From the NCBI RefSeq assembly GCF_009177095.1, contig NZ_AP021861.1, forward strand, positions 2,462,501 to 2,526,500: DNA of 64,000 bases, read 5' to 3'. The stretch is from Lacipirellula parvula (GTDB taxonomy: Bacteria > Planctomycetota > Planctomycetia > Pirellulales > Lacipirellulaceae). The notes below the pieces were generated by a model that ran no database searches, was not told the origin of the DNA, and saw only the letters and a list, made by a program, of their open reading frames with translations. Of this stretch, positions 9,661 to 63,776 are shown one piece after another (position 1 is the stretch's first letter; the number at the start of each line of letters is the position of its first letter). The position numbers and the translations under genes are program-made.

Positions 9661-11082
9661 CTAGTCCCTCCGTCCTTGGCTAGCGAAGTGCTGATTGTGC
9701 GTGTGGGAGGCGCTCTTGCTGTGGGAGGCGTCTCCGACGCCGATTCCGCGCTCTACTTCCAACCAATTCGGCCCCTCAAGCTGCTTCGGCGTCGGAGACG
9801 CCTCCCACAGCTCAGCTTCGCGACCTTCTCGCACGTCGACTACTGCAGGTCGCGCCGGCTCGACGCTCGCTGCTCGCGGCGCGTCCCAGCCTTCGTCGAC
9901 CGCGAACATCGCCGCGGGAGCCGGCAGCAATCCGAAGAACGTCCGACCGGGCAGATTGTATTGCCACAGCACCGCGCCGAGGAACATCACCGCCGCGATC
10001 GGCGTGCAGTACTTCAGGCACGTCGCCATCACCTGGTCGATCCGCAACCGCGGCAACGTCCAGCGAATCCAGATCATCACGCAGACGCCAACGACGCCCT
10101 TCAGCAGCACGTTCGTTAACCCGATCAGGTTGCCGAGGTAGCCGGTGAGTTCGCCATTCTCATAAGTCAGGCCGAGGATCGACGCGATCGGGATCGGCCC
10201 GTTCCAGGCGCCGAGGAACAGCACCGAGGCCAAGATGCTCACCGACAGCATCGAGCCATACTCGGCCATGAAGAAGAAGCTCCACCGCAGTCCGGAGTAT
10301 TCCGTGTGGAAGCCGGCCACGAGTTCGCTTTCAGCTTCGGCCAAGTCGAACGGCGCGCGATTGACGCTCGCCGTCGCACACGTGAAGTAGACCCAGAACG
10401 TGATGAACGTCGCCGGATCGTGGAAGATGAACCAGTTGGTGAAGAGTCCCGCCTGTTGGTTGCCGATGACGACCATGTCCATCGACCCGGCGATCAGCAC
10501 CGGGACGACGGCGCACATGCCGAGCGGCACTTCGTAGCTCACCACCTGAGCCGCTTCGCGCATGGCGCCAAAGAGCGACCACTTCGACGCCGAACTGTAC
10601 CCGGCGAGGATGACGCCGAAGACTTCGAGCCCCAGCACGGCGACGACGAAGAACACACCGGTGTTGAGGTGCTGCGCGATCCAGGGATAAGGACCGCCGG
10701 CGAACGGAATTGCAATGAACGCCGCGATCGACGCGGCGAAGCTGACATACGGCGCGATCTTGAACAGGAAGCCGTCCGCCCCATCGGGCATTAGGTCTTC
10801 TTTGGTGATCAGCTTCAGGCCGTCGGCGAGCGTTTGCAGCCAGCCGAACTTGCCGCCGACCCGGGTCGGACCGAGACGATCCTGAATGCGGCCGGAGATC
10901 TTGCGTTCCAGCCAGATGAACACCAGGGCGCCAACCGCCACTAGGTTCAGAATCAACACGATGTGAATCAGCGCAGCGACAACATAGCCAACAGCGCTGT
11001 CAGACGGGATCGACCAGCCGAGTCCCGACAACAGCCAACTGGACAGCAGCCAGTCGAGCAAGTTGTTGATTCCAGACGCCAC
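9661..11082 (-). CDS. nuoH: NADH-quinone oxidoreductase subunit H with repeat-derived C-terminus
   Basis: Membrane subunit linking the peripheral arm to the pump arm and forming part of the quinone cavity. Family motifs are clear: WLERKISGRIQDRLGPTRVG, PYVSFAASIAAFIAIPF, SVNRAPFDLAEAESELVAGFHTEYSG (quinone-site acidic loop) and WTLPRLRIDQVM. The 473 residues exceed the usual 320-440. After the last membrane helix (ending near NLPGRTFFGLLPAPAA) there is a hydrophilic tail of about 80 residues. The section from ELWEASPTP to GIGVGDASHS is encoded by a 90-base palindromic element (9720-9809) that also occurs outside genes elsewhere in the window. The start is a GTG. Translation probably couples to nuoJ. 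Confidence 0.95.
   Translation of the reverse strand: MASGINNLLDWLLSSWLLSGLGWSIPSDSAVGYVVAALIHIVLILNLVAVGALVFIWLERKISGRIQDRLGPTRVGGKFGWLQTLADGLKLITKEDLMPDGADGFLFKIAPYVSFAASIAAFIAIPFAGGPYPWIAQHLNTGVFFVVAVLGLEVFGVILAGYSSASKWSLFGAMREAAQVVSYEVPLGMCAVVPVLIAGSMDMVVIGNQQAGLFTNWFIFHDPATFITFWVYFTCATASVNRAPFDLAEAESELVAGFHTEYSGLRWSFFFMAEYGSMLSVSILASVLFLGAWNGPIPIASILGLTYENGELTGYLGNLIGLTNVLLKGVVGVCVMIWIRWTLPRLRIDQVMATCLKYCTPIAAVMFLGAVLWQYNLPGRTFFGLLPAPAAMFAVDEGWDAPRAASVEPARPAVVDVREGREAELWEASPTPKQLEGPNWLEVERGIGVGDASHSKSASHTHNQHFASQGRRD
9720..9809. repeat. GTGGGAGG-type palindromic element, copy 1 (inside nuoH)
   Basis: A perfect 24-base inverted repeat, TGTGGGAGGCGTCTCCGACG at the start of each arm, with arms at 9720-9743 and 9786-9809 around a 42-base loop. 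It lies in the 3' part of nuoH, in frame, and so is translated. Related copies are at 25284-25374, 57325-57414 and 59118-59208. Confidence 0.9.
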
Positions 11083-16194: not shown

Positions 16195-16273
16195 CTGAGG
16201 TCCAGAGTGCGCACCAGCGTGCTCTGGGCCTCTTTGCGTTTGATGGCGAAACGCAGCGGTGAGTTCGTAGAAT

Positions 16274-16479
16274 TGAACCGCCAAGGACGCCAAGGACGCC
16301 AAGGACGCCAAGGACGCCAAGGTAGAATGGGGAGAGCCTTGCTCGTTCGAATCTCAACCAAACAAGAGCACTGGTTGGAATAGTTCTACAGATCCGACGA
16401 TAAGCCTCTCAGAAGTTTCACTCTGACTTTCTATGCCTTCCGAATTTCCTTGGCGTCCTTGGCGTCCTTGGCGGTTCAG
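16274..16479. repeat. CCAAGGACG tandem/inverted repeat before hemH
   Basis: GAACCGCCAAGGACG followed by tandem CCAAGGACG units (five CCAAGG in a row, 16280-16322) is mirrored by CCTTGGCGTCCTTGGCGTCC TTGGCGGTTCA at 16448-16478. About 125 bases lie between the arms. The same arm family is at 18686-18780 and 26064-26253. Confidence 0.9.
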
Positions 16480-16496
16480 TTTTTTCAGCACCAGCC

Positions 16497-18685: not shown

Positions 18686-18780
18686 CGAACCGCCAAGGAC
18701 GCCAAGGACGCCAAGAGCGCCAAGAAGAAATACATTCTTCCCGTATTTCCTTGGCGCACTTGGCGTCCTTGGCGGTGAAT
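18686..18780. repeat. CCAAGGACG inverted repeat, copy 2
   Basis: GAACCGCCAAGGACGCCAAGGACGCCAAGAGCGCCAAG is matched by CTTGGCGCACTTGGCGTCC and TTGGCGG; a short inner stem AAATAC/GTATTT closes the loop. It lies between the divergent isochorismatase and hslV genes, so it is close to both promoters. Confidence 0.9.
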
Positions 18781-23883: not shown

Positions 23884-24238
23884 TCCCCTCCCTCGCAGGG
23901 AGGGGCCAGGGGAGGGATTCCCGACGCGTGCTGTCCTAGTTGGAACGAGAACCCGCCGTATTCCTTTCTTCGCCACACAAGCCGCCCCAGCCTCAATGAA
24001 CTCGCGTGGCTCAATCGCACCCCGCTAACCGACAAGAACCGCAAGGTTGCCCTAGCCCCGGGCTCCGCCCGGGGGCCGCGCACCATGCCGATGGAACGTC
24101 GTCCCTACGTCACGCCGACCCCCGGGCGGAGCCCGGGGCTAGGGGAACGCGCGCAGCACGAAGCAACTGAAACGCTACAGCTTCTTGCGCGGGGCCAGAG
24201 AAAAACCCCTCACCTAACCTCTCCCCTCGGGGGAGAGG
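23884..24238. repeat. composite nested repeats between murB and the ftsQ-like gene
   Basis: An outer pair of C/G-rich hairpins, CCCCTCCCTCGCAGGGAGGGG at 23885-23905 and CCTCTCCCCTCGGGGGAGAGG at 24218-24238, encloses a second palindrome at 24052-24142 (CTAGCCCCGGGCTCCGCCCG arm, see next entry). The gap has no gene of its own. Confidence 0.75.
24052..24142. repeat. CTAGCCCCGGGC palindrome with conserved loop, copy 1
   Basis: Arms CTAGCCCCGGGCTCCGCCCG plus GGGG and the reverse complement at 24119-24142 are perfect over 24 bases. The loop, with GCCGATGGAACGTCGTCCCT, is nearly identical to that of the copy at 31786-31876, so loop and arms were copied together. Confidence 0.92.
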
Positions 24239-25122: not shown

Positions 25123-25283
25123 GTTCGCACTATCCTTGACGAGTAGGCGCCATCGTGACTGATTGGCCCCGAATCGTCAATTCAGCCGGCATAAATTGCC
25201 CAGTCTGGGTGAGTTGCGTCGCGGTATGCCGAAATCGAGCCGGTGTGGTGGTTTCCCGCGAAAAACGCGGAGTGCCAGTGATC

Positions 25284-25374
25284 TGTGGGAGGCGTCTCCG
25301 ACGCTGATTCCGCTCGCCAAACGAAACCCACTCGGCATTGCCGGGCCGCATCGGGGTCGGAGACCCCTCCCACA
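25284..25374. repeat. GTGGGAGG-type palindromic element, copy 2
   Basis: Left arm TGTGGGAGGCGTCTCCGACG and right arm TCGGGGTCGGAGACCCCTCC CACA. The arms are of two sequence variants (GCGTC and GGGTC types) and so pair imperfectly. It lies in the 363-base gap between murB and trmL, which has no other feature I can support. Confidence 0.88.
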
Positions 25375-25485
25375 AGCCCTTTCGCCACCTCACTGCCTAG
25401 GTGTCGAAATAATCATCGACTCCCCGAGCCGAGAAGATCACGATTGCTCCCCGCATGCCGATCACGCCGCCTGCTTCAGTTCCGC

Positions 25486-26063: not shown

Positions 26064-26253
26064 AGTAACTGCCCAGGACGCCAAGAGCGCCAAGGAGAAA
26101 TGCTTTTTACCACGAAACACACGAAGCACACCAAAGGCAGAGCATGAGCTATCGAGCTCTTCCTCGTTTCTCAGTTTTGTGTGCTTCGTGTGTTTCGTGG
26201 TAAATCTCCCCGTACTTCTTGGCGCACATGGCGTCCTTGGCGGTTCAATTCGA
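26064..26253. repeat. concentric palindrome: CCAAGGACG outer pair, ACCACGAA inner pair
   Basis: The outer arms (GCCCAGGACGCCAAGAGCGC CAAGG and CTTGGCGCACATGGCGTCCT TGGCGG) flank a perfect 25-base inner inverted repeat, TTACCACGAAACACACGAAG CACAC at 26107-26131 with its complement at 26179-26203. It sits between the divergent trmL and Gfo/Idh genes, covering the likely promoters. Confidence 0.92.
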
Positions 26254-30721: not shown

Positions 30722-31789
30722 GTGTCGCGTCGGTTGCACTTCCCCTCGTCGCTCGCCCCGGAAGACCTCGCCCGTCTTGCGCGGCTACGGTACGTCACCG
30801 ACCAAGAGCCCGGCATGGGCCGGCGGCGGCACGGCCAAGGTTTCGCTTACACGACGGCTCGCGGCACGCCGCTGCGCGATCCGCGTAAAATTACCCGCAT
30901 CGAAACGCTCGCCATTCCGCCCGCGTGGCGCGACGTGTGGATCTGCACGGTGAGTGCGGGCCACCTCCAAGCCACCGGTCGCGACGCTCGCGAGCGGAAG
31001 CAGTACATTTACCACGAGCGGTGGCAGGAGGTTGCCGGCCTCGCGAAGTTCGCGCGGCTCGCGGCGTTCGGCGCGCAACTGCCCAAGCTCCGCCGCGCGA
31101 TCGCTGCGCACCTGCGTGGTCGTAGCCTGACGCGCGAGCGAGTGCTTGCCGGCATGTTGGCCGTGCTCGATCTCACCGGCATTCGCGTCGGCAACGAGGA
31201 ATACGTGAAGGAGAACGGCTCCTACGGCCTCGCGTCGCTCCGCAACCGCCATGTGACGATCGGCGCCCATCGCGTCGAACTCCGCTTCCGCGCGAAGGGA
31301 GGCTTTCATCGCAACGTGGAAATCGACGCTCCGGCTGTCGTACGCCTGATCCGCGATTGCGCCGAATTGGCAGGCAGTCGCGTCTTTCAATACCTCGACG
31401 CGGACGGCAAGATTCACGCTGTCGAGGCAGGCGAAGTGAATGAGTTCCTCCGCGAGCTCAGCGGCGAAGAGTTCACAGCCAAAGACTTCCGCACGTGGAA
31501 GGCGTCGACCTTCGCCGTCGGCGCGTTGTTCCGTGCGGAAGTGGCGGAGACCCTTACGGCTCGCAAGCGGACCGCTCGCGAGGTGGTGTGCGCGACTGCC
31601 GAGATGCTCAGCAACACGCCGGCCGTCTGCCGCAACTATTACATCCACCCGGGGCTGCTGGAGAGCTTTGAGGCAGGAACCTTTCGGCAAGAAGTCGGGA
31701 CCGCAACGCCCCGCGCCCGCAACCTATTTTCCACTGACGAGAAACTCCTCATGCGGTTTCTGAAGTACTGGAAGCCAACGCTCAACTAG
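30722..31789 (+). CDS. DNA topoisomerase IB (poxvirus/bacterial type)
   Basis: Relaxes supercoils by a transient 3'-phosphotyrosine link. 355 residues from a GTG preceded at five bases by GAGG; a TTG at 30665 would add 19 residues. The N-terminal domain has RLRYVTDQEPGMGRRR, and the catalytic domain has LTGIRVGNEEYVKENGSYGLASLRNRHV (Arg155), ELRFRAKGG (Lys192), EEFTAKDFRTWKAS (Arg257) and SNTPAVCRNYYIHP with the nucleophile Tyr, probably Tyr307. All residues of the Arg-Lys-Arg-Tyr set are present, so it should be active. Bacterial TopIB is patchily distributed. The stop codon lies within the first bases of a palindromic repeat. Confidence 0.93.
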   Translation: MSRRLHFPSSLAPEDLARLARLRYVTDQEPGMGRRRHGQGFAYTTARGTPLRDPRKITRIETLAIPPAWRDVWICTVSAGHLQATGRDARERKQYIYHERWQEVAGLAKFARLAAFGAQLPKLRRAIAAHLRGRSLTRERVLAGMLAVLDLTGIRVGNEEYVKENGSYGLASLRNRHVTIGAHRVELRFRAKGGFHRNVEIDAPAVVRLIRDCAELAGSRVFQYLDADGKIHAVEAGEVNEFLRELSGEEFTAKDFRTWKASTFAVGALFRAEVAETLTARKRTAREVVCATAEMLSNTPAVCRNYYIHPGLLESFEAGTFRQEVGTATPRARNLFSTDEKLLMRFLKYWKPTLN

Positions 31790-31876
31790 CCCCGGGCTCC
31801 GCCCGGGGGTCGCGCACCAAGCCGATGGAACGTCGCCCCTACTTCACGCCGACCCCCGGGCGGAGCCCGGGGCTAG
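31786..31876. repeat. CTAGCCCCGGGC palindrome with conserved loop, copy 2
   Basis: Perfect terminal arms CTAGCCCCGGGCTCCGCCCG plus GGGG around a 43-base loop nearly identical to that of copy 1 (GCCGATGGAACGTCGCCCCT). The TAG of the first CTAG is the stop codon of the upstream topoisomerase IB gene. Confidence 0.92.
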
Positions 31877-32006
31877 GGATGTGGCAGCAGTCCGGCAAGC
31901 GGCTAGCAATTCCCCCGCCCACGAATTCCCCCCGCAATTCGCCCTGGCTCGCTCCCCGCAAATTGTGCAGAATACCGCCGCTTCCAGGGAAGGAATCGCC
32001 GCTGCC

Positions 32007-35505: not shown

Positions 35506-36249
35506 TTGTCCGAACTCTCGCCCACCGCCGCTCCGCCGCGCCCGCGCGATCTCGTCGCGGTCGTCGTTGCGCTCGTGTTGCCGACGATCGTCACCTGGCT
35601 CTACTTTTTCCAGGCCGACGACATGCGCCCCGCCGCGCAGCTCCTCGTCTTCAATACGGTGAAGACAGTCCAGTTTTGCTTTCCGCTGTTCTGGGTGCTC
35701 GCCATCCAGCGGGGCCGCGTCACGCTCCGGCCGACGACTACCCGCGGAATCGACGTCGGCATCACGTTCGGCGGCGTCGTCGCGGCGACGATGTTTGCGC
35801 TCTACCTGATCTTCCTCCGCGCCTCGCAACCGGTCGTCGACGCCACCGAAATCATCATCGACAAGGTCAGCGGCTGGGGCATCAACGAGCCTTGGAAGTA
35901 CGGCCTCCTTGGCCTCTTCTACGCCCTCATCCACTCGTTTCTCGAAGAATACTACTGGCGCTGGTTCGTCTTCGGGCAACTCCGCCGTTTCATTCCGCTC
36001 TGGCCGGCGGCGATCATCTCCGCCCTTGGCTTCATGGCCCACCACGTCCTGGTGCTCGGCAAGTTCTGCGGCTTCGACAGCCCGCTCACGTACTTCCTCT
36101 CGGCCTGCGTCGCGATTGGCGGGGCCTTCTGGGCGTGGCTCTACGACCGCTCCGGCTCGCTGATGGGCCCGTGGCTCGGCCACATGCTGATCGACGCCGC
36201 CATCTTCGCGATCGGCTTCGATCTCATCCGCGGGTACTTTGCGACGTAG
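35506..36249 (+). CDS. CPBP family intramembrane glutamic endopeptidase
   Basis: 247-residue polytopic membrane protein with about seven hydrophobic helices. It has the CPBP (ABI/Rce1-like) motifs: EEYYWRWFVFG, the EExxxR motif, at about residues 146-156; MAHHVLVL with the second His pair; and GHMLIDAAIF at the last helix. These residues form the intramembrane catalytic site in this family, so it is likely active. Targets are unknown; family members cleave prenylated peptides, bacteriocin precursors or other membrane peptides. The start is a TTG at 35506. Confidence 0.88.
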   Translation: MSELSPTAAPPRPRDLVAVVVALVLPTIVTWLYFFQADDMRPAAQLLVFNTVKTVQFCFPLFWVLAIQRGRVTLRPTTTRGIDVGITFGGVVAATMFALYLIFLRASQPVVDATEIIIDKVSGWGINEPWKYGLLGLFYALIHSFLEEYYWRWFVFGQLRRFIPLWPAAIISALGFMAHHVLVLGKFCGFDSPLTYFLSACVAIGGAFWAWLYDRSGSLMGPWLGHMLIDAAIFAIGFDLIRGYFAT

Positions 36250-36250
36250 G

Positions 36251-36507
36251 AACCAACCACGAAGACTCGAGGGCGCGAAGGGCAGCACGAAGAAATGCTT
36301 TTTTAACCACGAATCACACGAAAGGAACGAAAGGAGAGGTAAAAAAACTCACCGCTAATTAACGCTAATTGATTTGATTCCAATCAGCGATCATTAGCGT
36401 GAATCAGCGGTACAACCCTCTTCATTTTCGTGTTATTTCGTGTGTTTCGTGGTTAAAAATCCCCGCTCCCGCATTTCGTCGTGTACTTCGCGCTGCAGTA
36501 GTTCAAT
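36251..36507. repeat. three-layer concentric palindrome
   Basis: From outside in: ACCACGAAGACTCGAGGGCG CGAAGGGCAGCACGAAGAAATGC with GCATTTCGTCGTGTACTTCG CGCTGCAGTAG; TTAACCACGAATCACACGAA AGG with TTTCGTGTGTTTCGTGGTTA A; and ACCGCTAATTAACGCTAATT with ATCATTAGCGTGAATCAGCG GT. Each layer is a separate inverted-repeat family found elsewhere in other combinations. Confidence 0.92.
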
Positions 36508-37008
36508 TCTCTTGCTAGCGGTCCGTGGACGCACACGCATAAAACGGCAGAAACCCGCCTATGTAGTGCTAGCACTTCCTGCCCGCCGCAATATCGTCGA
36601 ATGGTTTGCGTCGGCTGACGAAGTCGTTACATTTCGCTTCAGACTTGCATCCACGATCCGGACCGGTGACACGGTCGCCCATTGAAGGAGTTTCGAGGCC
36701 AGAAGATAGGGAAGTCGTTCCGACCCAGTTCCCCGTGCGGGCACGAAGCGTCGGACAGCCGCCTCAAGTCAAACATTGCCGCGCCCGAGCGCCCACGGAT
36801 GGGTGGTCACGCCAGCTTCAGCTAGCCGACACGCTTGCCGCGCTACAAGTTCGCTTTGATCTGAGTGTTGTTGTCCGTCAGACTTTTGCCGCCCGTGCGA
36901 GGCGACAGCGAACGATTCTCCTCCGGCCTCTTTGAGCGAGCCCCCGCAAGCTCGCCGTTGTAGGGAAACCACAGGGTGCGCCATGATGGCGCCGGAAAGG
37001 ATCATTCC
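36508..37008. other. 500-base region without a supported gene
   Basis: Lies between the concentric repeat and the amidotransferase-like gene. Short plus-strand frames have no start signal or recognisable domain. It presumably contains the promoter of the downstream gene; no boxes can be assigned with confidence. Confidence 0.45.
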
Positions 37009-37940: not shown

Positions 37941-38191
37941 AACCACGACGGCACGACGAGCACGACGAAATACTTTTTTAACCACGAAGCACACGAAAGG
38001 AACGAAAAAGGAAAGAAGAGAATGAGCCCGCGAATTGACGCGAATGATCGCTAATTGAAATGCAATTCATTTATTCGCGATAATTCGCGTGGATTAGCGG
38101 GCCAAAGTTTTTTTTCGTGCCTTTTGTGTGTTTCGTGGTTAAATAATTCCCCGTTCCCGCATTTCGTCGTGTTCTTCGTGCCGTTGTGGTT
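37941..38191. repeat. three-layer concentric palindrome, second example
   Basis: Outer pair AACCACGACGGCACGACGAG CACGACGAAAT with ATTTCGTCGTGTTCTTCGTG CCGTTGTGGTT; middle pair TTAACCACGAAGCACACGAA AGG with TGTGTGTTTCGTGGTTAA; inner pair CCGCGAATTGACGCGAATGA TCGCTAATT with AATTCGCGTGGATTAGCGGG. It lies between the convergent amidotransferase-like and DJ-1/PfpI genes. Confidence 0.93.
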
Positions 38192-38196
38192 AGCTT

Positions 38197-38790: not shown

Positions 38791-38967
38791 AACCACGACG
38801 GCACGACGAGCACGACGGAAAGCGATCGATTAGAACCGCCGATGAACGCAGATAAACGCAAATGAGAGATCAAATCCTCTCCCAACCAATCTTATCTGCG
38901 TGCATTGGCGTTCATCTGCGGTTCGTTCCTTCGGGCATTTCGTCGTGTCCGTTGTGCCGTCGTGGTT
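38791..38967. repeat. two-layer concentric palindrome
   Basis: Outer pair AACCACGACGGCACGACGAG CACGACGG with CGTCGTGTCCGTTGTGCCGT CGTGGTT (same outer family as 37941-38191), but with a different inner pair: GAACCGCCGATGAACGCAGA TAAACGCA with TTATCTGCGTGCATTGGCGT TCATCTGCGGTTC. It shows that inner modules are swapped between outer shells. Confidence 0.93.
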
Positions 38968-56921: not shown

Positions 56922-57446
56922 GACGAGTTCCCCTGTGACAAGGCTCGAGGTCCTTTTCGGCGGACGACGACCGTGCTAGTGAAGGGCATTCACTCGCTCC
57001 AAGTGTAATTGGCGTAAGCATTAGAGTCAAGAAAGGGAGACTCCCTATCGAAGCCCCGAATCGCCGTAACTTGGCGAGGCGGCGCGACGACTTTTCGGCA
57101 CTTACGCCGATTTTTTGCGTGGCTATTTAGCGGCAAATTGTCAAAGAGCAGGCTGCCGGGCGTGCCTATGGCTACCCAGAGACAAGTATCGACCCGCACG
57201 ACCGCCAGACTTCAGCTAATCGTTAAAGTCGACCAAATTATTCCAGCCAGCATGCTGGCGCCCGGCATTTGGGTACCTGCAGCCTTCGGGGCTGGTTCAG
57301 GGTACGACGCGTTTCCCAAAAAACTGTGGGAGGGGTCTCTGACCCCGAAGCGGCATTGTGCTGCCGCCACCGCTTGCAGTGGTGACCGGCATCGGCGTCG
57401 GAGACGCCTCCCACAAGCGATGTGTAGCAAGGGCGATAGCACCAGA
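56922..57446. other. 525-base region with one repeat and no supported gene
   Basis: Upstream of the HU gene. It contains the palindromic element at 57325-57414 and otherwise nothing that I can assign. Confidence 0.45.
57325..57414. repeat. GTGGGAGG-type palindromic element, copy 3
   Basis: Left arm TGTGGGAGGGGTCTCTGACC CCGA, right arm TCGGCGTCGGAGACGCCTCC CACA, the reverse arrangement of the two arm variants of copies 2 and 4. Loop of about 42 bases. Confidence 0.88.
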
Positions 57447-59073: not shown

Positions 59074-59117
59074 GGTGCTGGAACTGAGGCCTAGAGTGAG
59101 CTCTCCGAAGAAATGTT

Positions 59118-59208
59118 TGTGGGAGGCGTCTCCGACGCCGAGTTCGCTCACCACAACAAGTCGTTTAGGTGACGCAACGCCGCTTCGGGGTCAGAGACCC
59201 CTCCCACA
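59118..59208. repeat. GTGGGAGG-type palindromic element, copy 4
   Basis: Left arm TGTGGGAGGCGTCTCCGACG CCGA, right arm TCGGGGTCAGAGACCCCTCC CACA, same arrangement as copy 2. It lies between the class V aminotransferase and feoB. Confidence 0.88.
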
Positions 59209-59267
59209 GATGCATTGTGGAAGGCCGCGAGCAACCCAGCCTACCAAGTTTGCCGCCGGCGCTCGAC

Positions 59268-63560: not shown

Positions 63561-63776
63561 AGCCCCGAAGGGGCGGCATGATGTAGCCAGGGGCGCCAGC
63601 CCCTGGACCGGATCGTGCCAAGTACAGAAAGCCCCGCGAGGGGCGACACTTGCCGCGTCGATCTCACTCTGCACGCGACCAGGAATTCTGTCGCCCCTGC
63701 CGGGGCTTAGACGTAGAAAACGCCTTCATCCAGGGGCTCACGCCCCTGGCTACATGATTTCGCTCCTCCGGAGCTG
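63561..63776. repeat. nested palindrome of AGCCCCGAAGGGGC/TAGCCAGGGGC type
   Basis: From outside in: AGCCCCGAAGGGGCGGCATG ATG with CATGATTTCGCTCCTCCGGA GCT; TGTAGCCAGGGGCGCCAGCC CCTGGA with TCCAGGGGCTCACGCCCCTG GCTACA; and AAGCCCCGCGAGGGGCGACA with TGTCGCCCCTGCCGGGGCTT. It fills the gap between the permease and the glycosyltransferase. Confidence 0.92.

Follow-up and report, generated by a model that had tools for sequence, protein, structure and literature searches.

The hairpin at positions 36256-36504 of a 64,000-nucleotide stretch of Lacipirellula parvula DNA (hereafter the window) consists of three nested, concentric inverted repeats, which are independent modules. The arm of its middle layer ends an element bearing a GxxExxY gene, and the arm types of its outer layer and core do likewise elsewhere, which is the new observation reported here. 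Genomes of the same genus differ in the presence and absence of such palindromes, and inner palindromes occupy the loops of outer palindromes shared between genomes. GxxExxY is a widespread family of small proteins which, to our knowledge, has no assigned role. Neither a tie between GxxExxY and palindromes nor nests of this kind were found in the open-access literature searched, in which the publications naming GxxExxY do not mention palindromes in their relevant sections; subscription papers and preprints lay mostly outside this search, so that absence in print remains unproven.

Anatomy and modularity of the three-layer hairpin

The first-pass annotation, which was made from the sequence alone, had proposed three stacked inverted-repeat families at 36251-36507, and this held in the stem scores, the folding and the orthologs. 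Judged against the maximum of 500 shuffles, the middle stem (25.2 versus 12.7) and the core stem (15.4 versus 9.3) are far beyond chance, whereas the outer stem (12.6 versus 12.3) is marginal by itself. The fold of the 257 nt reaches z = -10.4 as RNA and z = -8.4 as DNA of the other strand, and none of 200 shuffles equals it in either case. The CPBP gene lies upstream of the hairpin and a peptidase C26 gene downstream; the latter was used to locate the orthologous site in two genomes of the same genus (G003 and G004). Both possess the same three layers, and in both the outer stem is strong: it reaches 20.8 in G003 (shuffle maximum 11.6) and 29.0 in G004 (shuffle maximum 14.0). Because the orthologous outer stems are strong, the outer layer of L. 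parvula is a decayed arm pair and not a chance match.

The two outer arms look unlike each other, the left being of the CACGAAG type and the right CACGACG-like, for which we offer no explanation; arm exchange between copies is a possible source of the mismatch. Positions 36466-36508 share 77% identity with the CACGACG arm at 38154-38196, and the outer layer of G003 and G004 shows CACGAAG/CACCAAG types on both sides. A linker, AATGCGGGGA or AATGCGGGAGCGGGGA, is found between the shells (36460-36476) and outside many solitary ACCACGAA arms genome-wide; it may mark the true border of the element.

Table 1. Features of the window and orthologous sites compared between L. parvula and G003 (genome coordinates for the latter sites)
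Feature	Position	Strand	Remarks
Upstream gene, CPBP/Rce1-like membrane protease	35506-36249	+	stop codon 6 bases before the outer arm
Outer layer, left arm	36256-36298		CACGAAG type, decayed
Outer layer, right arm	36471-36504		resembles CACGACG family
Outer layer, best-pairing part	36273-36298 / 36471-36493
Middle layer, left arm	36299-36339		TTAACCACGAATCACACGAAAGGAACGAAAGG
Middle layer, right arm	36417-36459		pairs with 36299-36339
Core layer, left arm	36351-36379		ACCGCTAATTAACGCTAATT
Core layer, right arm	36382-36411		pairs with 36351-36379
Sibling three-layer composite	37941-38191		CACGACGGC outer, ACCACGAA middle, CGCGAAT/CGCTAAT core
Two-layer nest	38791-38967		CACGACGGC outer, CCGCCGATGAACGCAGATAAACGC inner
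Two-layer nest	26067-26245		GCCAAG outer, ACCACGAA inner
GCCAAGGAC palindrome (GCCAAG alone)	16271-16481		no tested inner layer; stem 32.8
GCCAAGGAC palindrome (GCCAAG alone)	18700-18774		short loop
REPIN-like palindromes AGCCCCGGGCTCCGCCCGGGG and TGTGGGAGGCGTCTCCGACGCC	24052-24144, 31786-31878, 9719-9814, 25283-25377, 57324-57418, 59117-59211
Rfam Acido-Lenti-1, inverted pair	63561-63606 / 63730-63775
Orthologous site	L. parvula 2454801 / G003 2411367		empty / AATGTGG palindrome
Orthologous site	L. parvula 315408 / G003 432117		CCACCGGC palindrome / empty
Orthologous site	L. parvula 420125 / G003 534486		AATGGGG / outer decayed, empty
Orthologous site	L. parvula 248270 / G003 362924		AATGCTG / ACCACCAAGG, left outer arm lost
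Orthologous site	L. parvula 237259 / G003 339739		outer remnant only / ACCACGAAGACACGACGG

The same annotation had stated that the shells recur in the window with other partners, and this is likewise borne out by the sibling composite, the two-layer nests and the solitary GCCAAG palindromes (Table 1). At the site of the sibling composite other palindrome families are present in G003 and G004. At 38791-38967 a similar nest occurs in G003 and a different two-layer nest in G004. Unrelated palindrome families are seen to share an intergenic site across genomes of the genus, at 37941-38191 of the window and at C1:2552624, 122633, 270210 and 1660070 of L. parvula. No expectation was computed for this pattern, and a hot spot, replacement or chance are all possible.

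The layers were also proposed to be modules, a view that would have been refuted had they always occurred together. A genome-wide search and nesting table was carried out on the middle arm, in the single L. parvula contig (6,922,258 bases). The 17-nt core of this arm, ACCACGAANNACACGAA, has 60 exact copies in 39 clusters (none for the reversed control), and the arm occurs solitarily, nested in three other families and itself enclosing several. Among the 35 ACCACGAA arm pairs that met the rules of an automatic layer test, 12 enclose an inner stem, nine have an outer stem, three have both and 17 neither; the outer layer of the hairpin described here itself fails the automatic outer test (10.2 versus 15.8). 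By reading, two clusters (L035 and L041) contain a lone ACCACGAA arm. The families around ACCACGAA are GCCAAGGAC, CACGACGGC and CGCAAAGGCGCGAAGG; within it lie palindromes of the CGCTAAT/CGCGAAT or the CGCAGAG/CGCAAAG types, CCACCGGCTCC, GTCATTCCGAGCG or else a gene. In particular, CGCAAAGGCGCGAAGG lies outside ACCACGAA at 2326623 (stem 17.6), 5691535 (21.9) and, weakly, 578146 (11.5), with the order reversed at 2462275 and 6136134. The two families therefore nest in both orders and do not form one fixed unit. Partners and order vary, and the modularity of the layers is upheld.

GxxExxY genes, their arms and their protein

The ACCACGAA palindrome at C1:2230146-2230641 contains a whole GxxExxY gene. 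There are four matches to GxxExxY (TIGR04256) in the L. parvula genome, each inside a palindrome of a different arm family: CGCAAAGGCGCGAAGG at L048, GGATTGGCTGGATTAACAGGAT at L049, ACCACGACGACACGACGG at L050 and ACCACGAAACACACGAA at L051. The arms of L051 belong to the family of the middle layer, and those of L050 are of the CACGACG family, similar to the outer right arm. In a relative (L085), a GxxExxY gene is surrounded by CACGAAG arms, the type of the outer left arm. For the core, the corresponding arms are known from other genomes only, as none of the four L. parvula genes is surrounded by CGCTAAT arms: GCAGAT arms of a related type occur in G005 (L087), CGCGAAT arms of the type of the core in an acidobacterial locus (L233), and CGCGAAT/CGCTAAT arms like the core in Neomarinimicrobiota (L248), the last with a score of 16.2, just under the 95% cut of 16.9.

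GxxExxY was found in 48 of 59 genomes (L. parvula included, up to 14 matches each), and IVP, the 23S rRNA intervening-sequence protein family, in 45 of the 59 (L. parvula included, up to 20 matches each). The threshold, a flank palindrome score of 13.1, was the highest reached by any of the 29 control GATase loci scored (30 given). It is exceeded at 31 of 32 GxxExxY loci (four in L. parvula, 28 in relatives; 33 given) and at 32 of 34 IVP loci (eight in L. parvula, 26 in relatives; 37 given). All four L. parvula GxxExxY genes and 27 of the 28 scored in relatives are accordingly enclosed by palindromes. The loci of the relatives are among the best-scoring search matches and no random sample. Stricter 99% cut-offs from cross-pairs, 27.4 for GxxExxY and 69.6 for IVP, are passed by only 10/32 and 0/34 loci, respectively; these cut-offs are likely too high, being raised by neighbouring loci and by arm families common to several loci. 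Of the best 80 among at least 463 GxxExxY matches in a named genome collection covering many phyla, 59 loci lie above the 95% cross-pair null and 36 above the 99% null, while 21 fail at 95%. The 59 passing loci span about a dozen phyla, as judged by record title.

The arms follow a common grammar. At loci with a flank stem of at least 14, to which this analysis was restricted, the best repeat lag is 8-11 in 60 of 62 GxxExxY arms from L. parvula and relatives and in 115 of the 128 arms scored from many phyla (136 arms, eight too short to score). The repeated unit is a heptamer, CRCNVAD, followed by 1-4 nt, and hence recurs every 8-11 nt. Runs of two or more heptamers are present at 25/31 GxxExxY loci of L. 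parvula and relatives and at 57/68 of those from many phyla, compared with 1/32 IVP loci and about 1% of shuffles. As the consensus was drawn by eye from such arms, it is a description and no independent proof. It fits CACGAAA of the middle layer, CGCTAAT of the core and CACGAAG of the outer left arm; CACGACG of the outer right arm departs from it at position 6 only. The arms of IVP loci, on the other hand, keep a strict 7-nt period, the best lag being 7 or 14 in all 64 arms from 32 loci. Palindromes of this period were noted at L052-L059 and L089-L117. The eight IVP matches of L. parvula (TIGR02436, PF05635) are wrapped in palindromes, clearly so in seven (scores 18.6-32.0); the palindrome of L052 is weak (12.0) and its gene has an internal stop.

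Similarity among GxxExxY proteins correlates with similarity among their heptamers (Mantel r 0.45 over the 87 loci with a callable heptamer; 0.46 for 60 loci from many phyla, 0.49 for 27 loci of L. parvula and relatives). Each p of 0.001 is the floor of 999 permutations, and base composition and kinship are uncontrolled. Gene and arms travel together. Recognition of the heptamer by the GxxExxY protein may be inferred from this pattern, which gene-arm linkage alone could also produce.

The GxxExxY protein itself is likely a nuclease, as predicted by structural model and sequence pattern, with an unidentified substrate and no activity data. Thirteen GxxExxY fragments have invariant D62, E72 and K74 (numbering of the L051 fragment) in a PD-(D/E)XK pattern, and the four L. 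parvula proteins match Pfam PDDEXK_3 with E values of 1.6e-38 or lower. The AlphaFold model of the L051 fragment has a mean pLDDT of 95.9. At E < 0.001 it matches nothing in the PDB but two chains of SSO0001, which we take to be a Cas4 protein (TM-score 0.55 by query length); another Cas4 follows at 0.013, and RecU and a Holliday-junction resolvase match weakly.

Loop insertion, the proposed origin and its rivals

Growth by insertion into its own loop had been suggested for the hairpin, and this holds if reworded: the loop entered is that of a different palindrome, which may be of the same class or of another. L. parvula and G003 were compared over three 400-kb blocks, in which the chains spanned 217, 270 and 190 kb (76-78% identity). 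One 400-kb block of L. parvula contains 1,728 N (L148-L167). Five sites picked by eye among the divergent ones keep an outer palindrome of which the inner module is absent or different in one genome (Table 1). They show the insertion of palindromes into the loops of older palindromes, with the reservation that loss of the inner copy instead of gain stays possible at every one of them. In four of the five the outer palindrome is GTAGCC-type and REPIN-like. None holds the three families of the hairpin, to which the observation is extended by class. The growth steps of the hairpin itself are not visible, as the same set of layers is present at its site in each of the three genomes. At an identity of about 77% neither a base-precise empty site nor a target duplication is readable between L. 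parvula and G003.

A preference for loops is possible and only weakly supported. Of 50 automatically polarised insertions, two hit a loop and 48 a target without a stem, and no arm was hit, so most insertions go to plain intergenic DNA. The control points gave 12 in loops and 12 in arms out of 500, against which the loop enrichment among the 50 insertions is not significant. When 209 stems scoring at least 20, taken from both genomes in two of the three blocks and in part possibly coding, were deleted in silico and their flanks joined, seven fell in a palindrome loop and none in an arm. Loop and arm counts among 1254 control points were 6:14 with a 4-base tolerance and 18:12 with a 10-base tolerance. 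The corresponding Fisher p values are 0.002 and 0.047 for loop versus arm, and 0.0009 and 0.054 for nested versus control. The count is affected by layers that touch and by stems that may be coding. The G003 ortholog of the hairpin is one of the seven nested stems; the nest in the window itself was missed because its layers touch. A de novo search for nesting gave eight concentric and seven eccentric pairs among 430 stems; it fused touching layers, missed the hairpin, included coding-looking stems and was not used for counts.

We favour, with moderate confidence, the interpretation of the hairpin as a stack of non-autonomous palindromes of a GxxExxY superfamily that grew by loop insertion with the nuclease as mover. 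The locus would comprise three non-autonomous copies from one superfamily of small palindromic elements, of which a complete member would have two arms of CRCNVAD heptamers around a gene for the predicted PD-(D/E)XK nuclease. Most copies would have lost the gene and kept the arms. New copies would enter intergenic DNA or, on meeting an older palindrome, its loop, and shells would accumulate from the outside inward. The nuclease may cut or nick a cruciform or replication hairpin at its exposed tip, and repair of the break may then copy in a new unit of arm, loop and arm. The role of the GxxExxY protein as mover, the reading of heptamers, the cut-and-copy route and an active preference for loops are all inferences for which no activity data exist.

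We also have to consider that the GxxExxY and IVP genes are mere passengers and that another enzyme, e.g., a RAYT/Y1 transposase, moves all the palindromes. The genome indeed has four Y1_Tnp matches, three of them inside palindromes, and the REPIN-like outer palindromes at four of the five loop-insertion sites are consistent with this view. However, the palindromes enclosing Y1_Tnp are, by reading, other families without heptamer arms. Moreover, GxxExxY stays with a period of 8-11 and IVP with a period of 7, although free passengers would mix, and protein similarity follows the arm type. We therefore consider the passenger explanation unlikely. We give still less credit to the idea that each composite is copied in its entirety as a fixed MITE-like unit, with nesting being old and no loop insertion taking place. 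It draws support from positions 37959-38007 and 36284-36332, which are 94% alike over 49 nt across the junction of outer and middle layer (family D10), and from the identical layering at the site in L. parvula, G003 and G004. Yet partners and order vary, spacers differ among loci (by reading), and orthologous sites with the outer palindrome and without the inner one exist. The variable order largely refutes this explanation, and a fixed three-layer unit is rejected.

It is equally very unlikely that the palindromes are host structures such as terminators or mRNA 3' ends under selection, with nesting as the elaboration of a useful stem. The short distance of the element to the upstream stop codon (6 bases) and its persistence in three genomes would agree with such a function. 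Against it, a consensus terminator scan gave two matches, both outside the element and equal to the shuffle mean, so that terminator identity is rejected. The outer stem has decayed in L. parvula, and among 126 divergent stem sites in the three blocks a strong palindrome is present in only one genome at 88 and in both at 14. A known Rfam RNA is likewise rejected, none of the three Rfam matches of the window being at the hairpin.

The proposed stack of GxxExxY-superfamily palindromes can be extended to a bolder and merely possible reading, according to which hairpin-tip-homing elements, i.e., palindromes of repeated heptamers with a GxxExxY or IVP gene in the loop, occur across many bacterial phyla. 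If true, rRNA intervening sequences would be a special case with a ribosomal helix as the tip, and nested palindromes like the present one would be the footprint of repeated homing. Should GxxExxY be the motor, the CACAGAG/CACGAAG/GCCAAG intergenic repeats of many genomes would receive one explanation, and the way in which rRNA intervening sequences reach helix tips would become testable.

Comparison with known palindromic systems

By the membership tests carried out, the hairpin belongs to neither the rRNA intervening sequences nor the REPIN family. With REP sequences and REPINs it shares the intergenic position, the many copies and the inverted pairs (PMC3733652, PMC3116915), and REP dimers inserted within longer palindromes provide a precedent for nesting (PMC3733652). 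In contrast to these, its layers lack a GTAG or CGTC tag, as read directly from the arms, and no RAYT is associated with its arms: three of the four Y1_Tnp matches of L. parvula have arms, which belong to other families, and REPIN membership of the layers is rejected. Around the Y1_Tnp gene at C1:1466181 lies the second REPIN-like type, TGTGGGAGGCGTCTCCGACGCC. A GTAGCCAGGGGC palindrome (L348) surrounds the Y1_Tnp gene at C1:2347180 and looks similar to the Acido-Lenti-1 pair of the window. The Acido-Lenti-1 'sRNA' family may possibly be a REPIN moved by RAYT; the likeness of L348 is one of appearance only.

In contrast to MITEs, the arms of the hairpin are whole stems of repeated units and not short terminal repeats, and the gene encodes a nuclease-fold protein and no recognised transposase. 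A target duplication was not seen, the borders being imprecise at the roughly 77% identity of the sister genome. Nevertheless, as in MITEs (reviewed in PMC10969869), gene-less short copies share their ends with a gene-bearing copy in the genome, the autonomy of which is inferred.

The intervening sequences of 23S rRNA encode IVP/S23p, a four-helix-bundle protein. The hairpin differs from them in lying outside rRNA genes, as no rRNA emerged when the window was scanned against Rfam at gathering thresholds, and in that the complete middle-family copy in L. parvula encodes GxxExxY and not IVP/S23p. Its arms have spaced heptamers, whereas the IVP arms examined here keep their strict 7-nt period. 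An intervening-sequence stem-loop has been found to replace a small tetraloop in rRNA (PMC4990558), and most of the rRNA insertion sequences studied are at the top or base of stem-loops, with IVP among their ORFs (PMC11270868). The intervening sequences resemble the elements described here in that their ends are complementary and the loop carries a small ORF, and the IVP genes (PF05635) of L. parvula likewise lie in palindromes.
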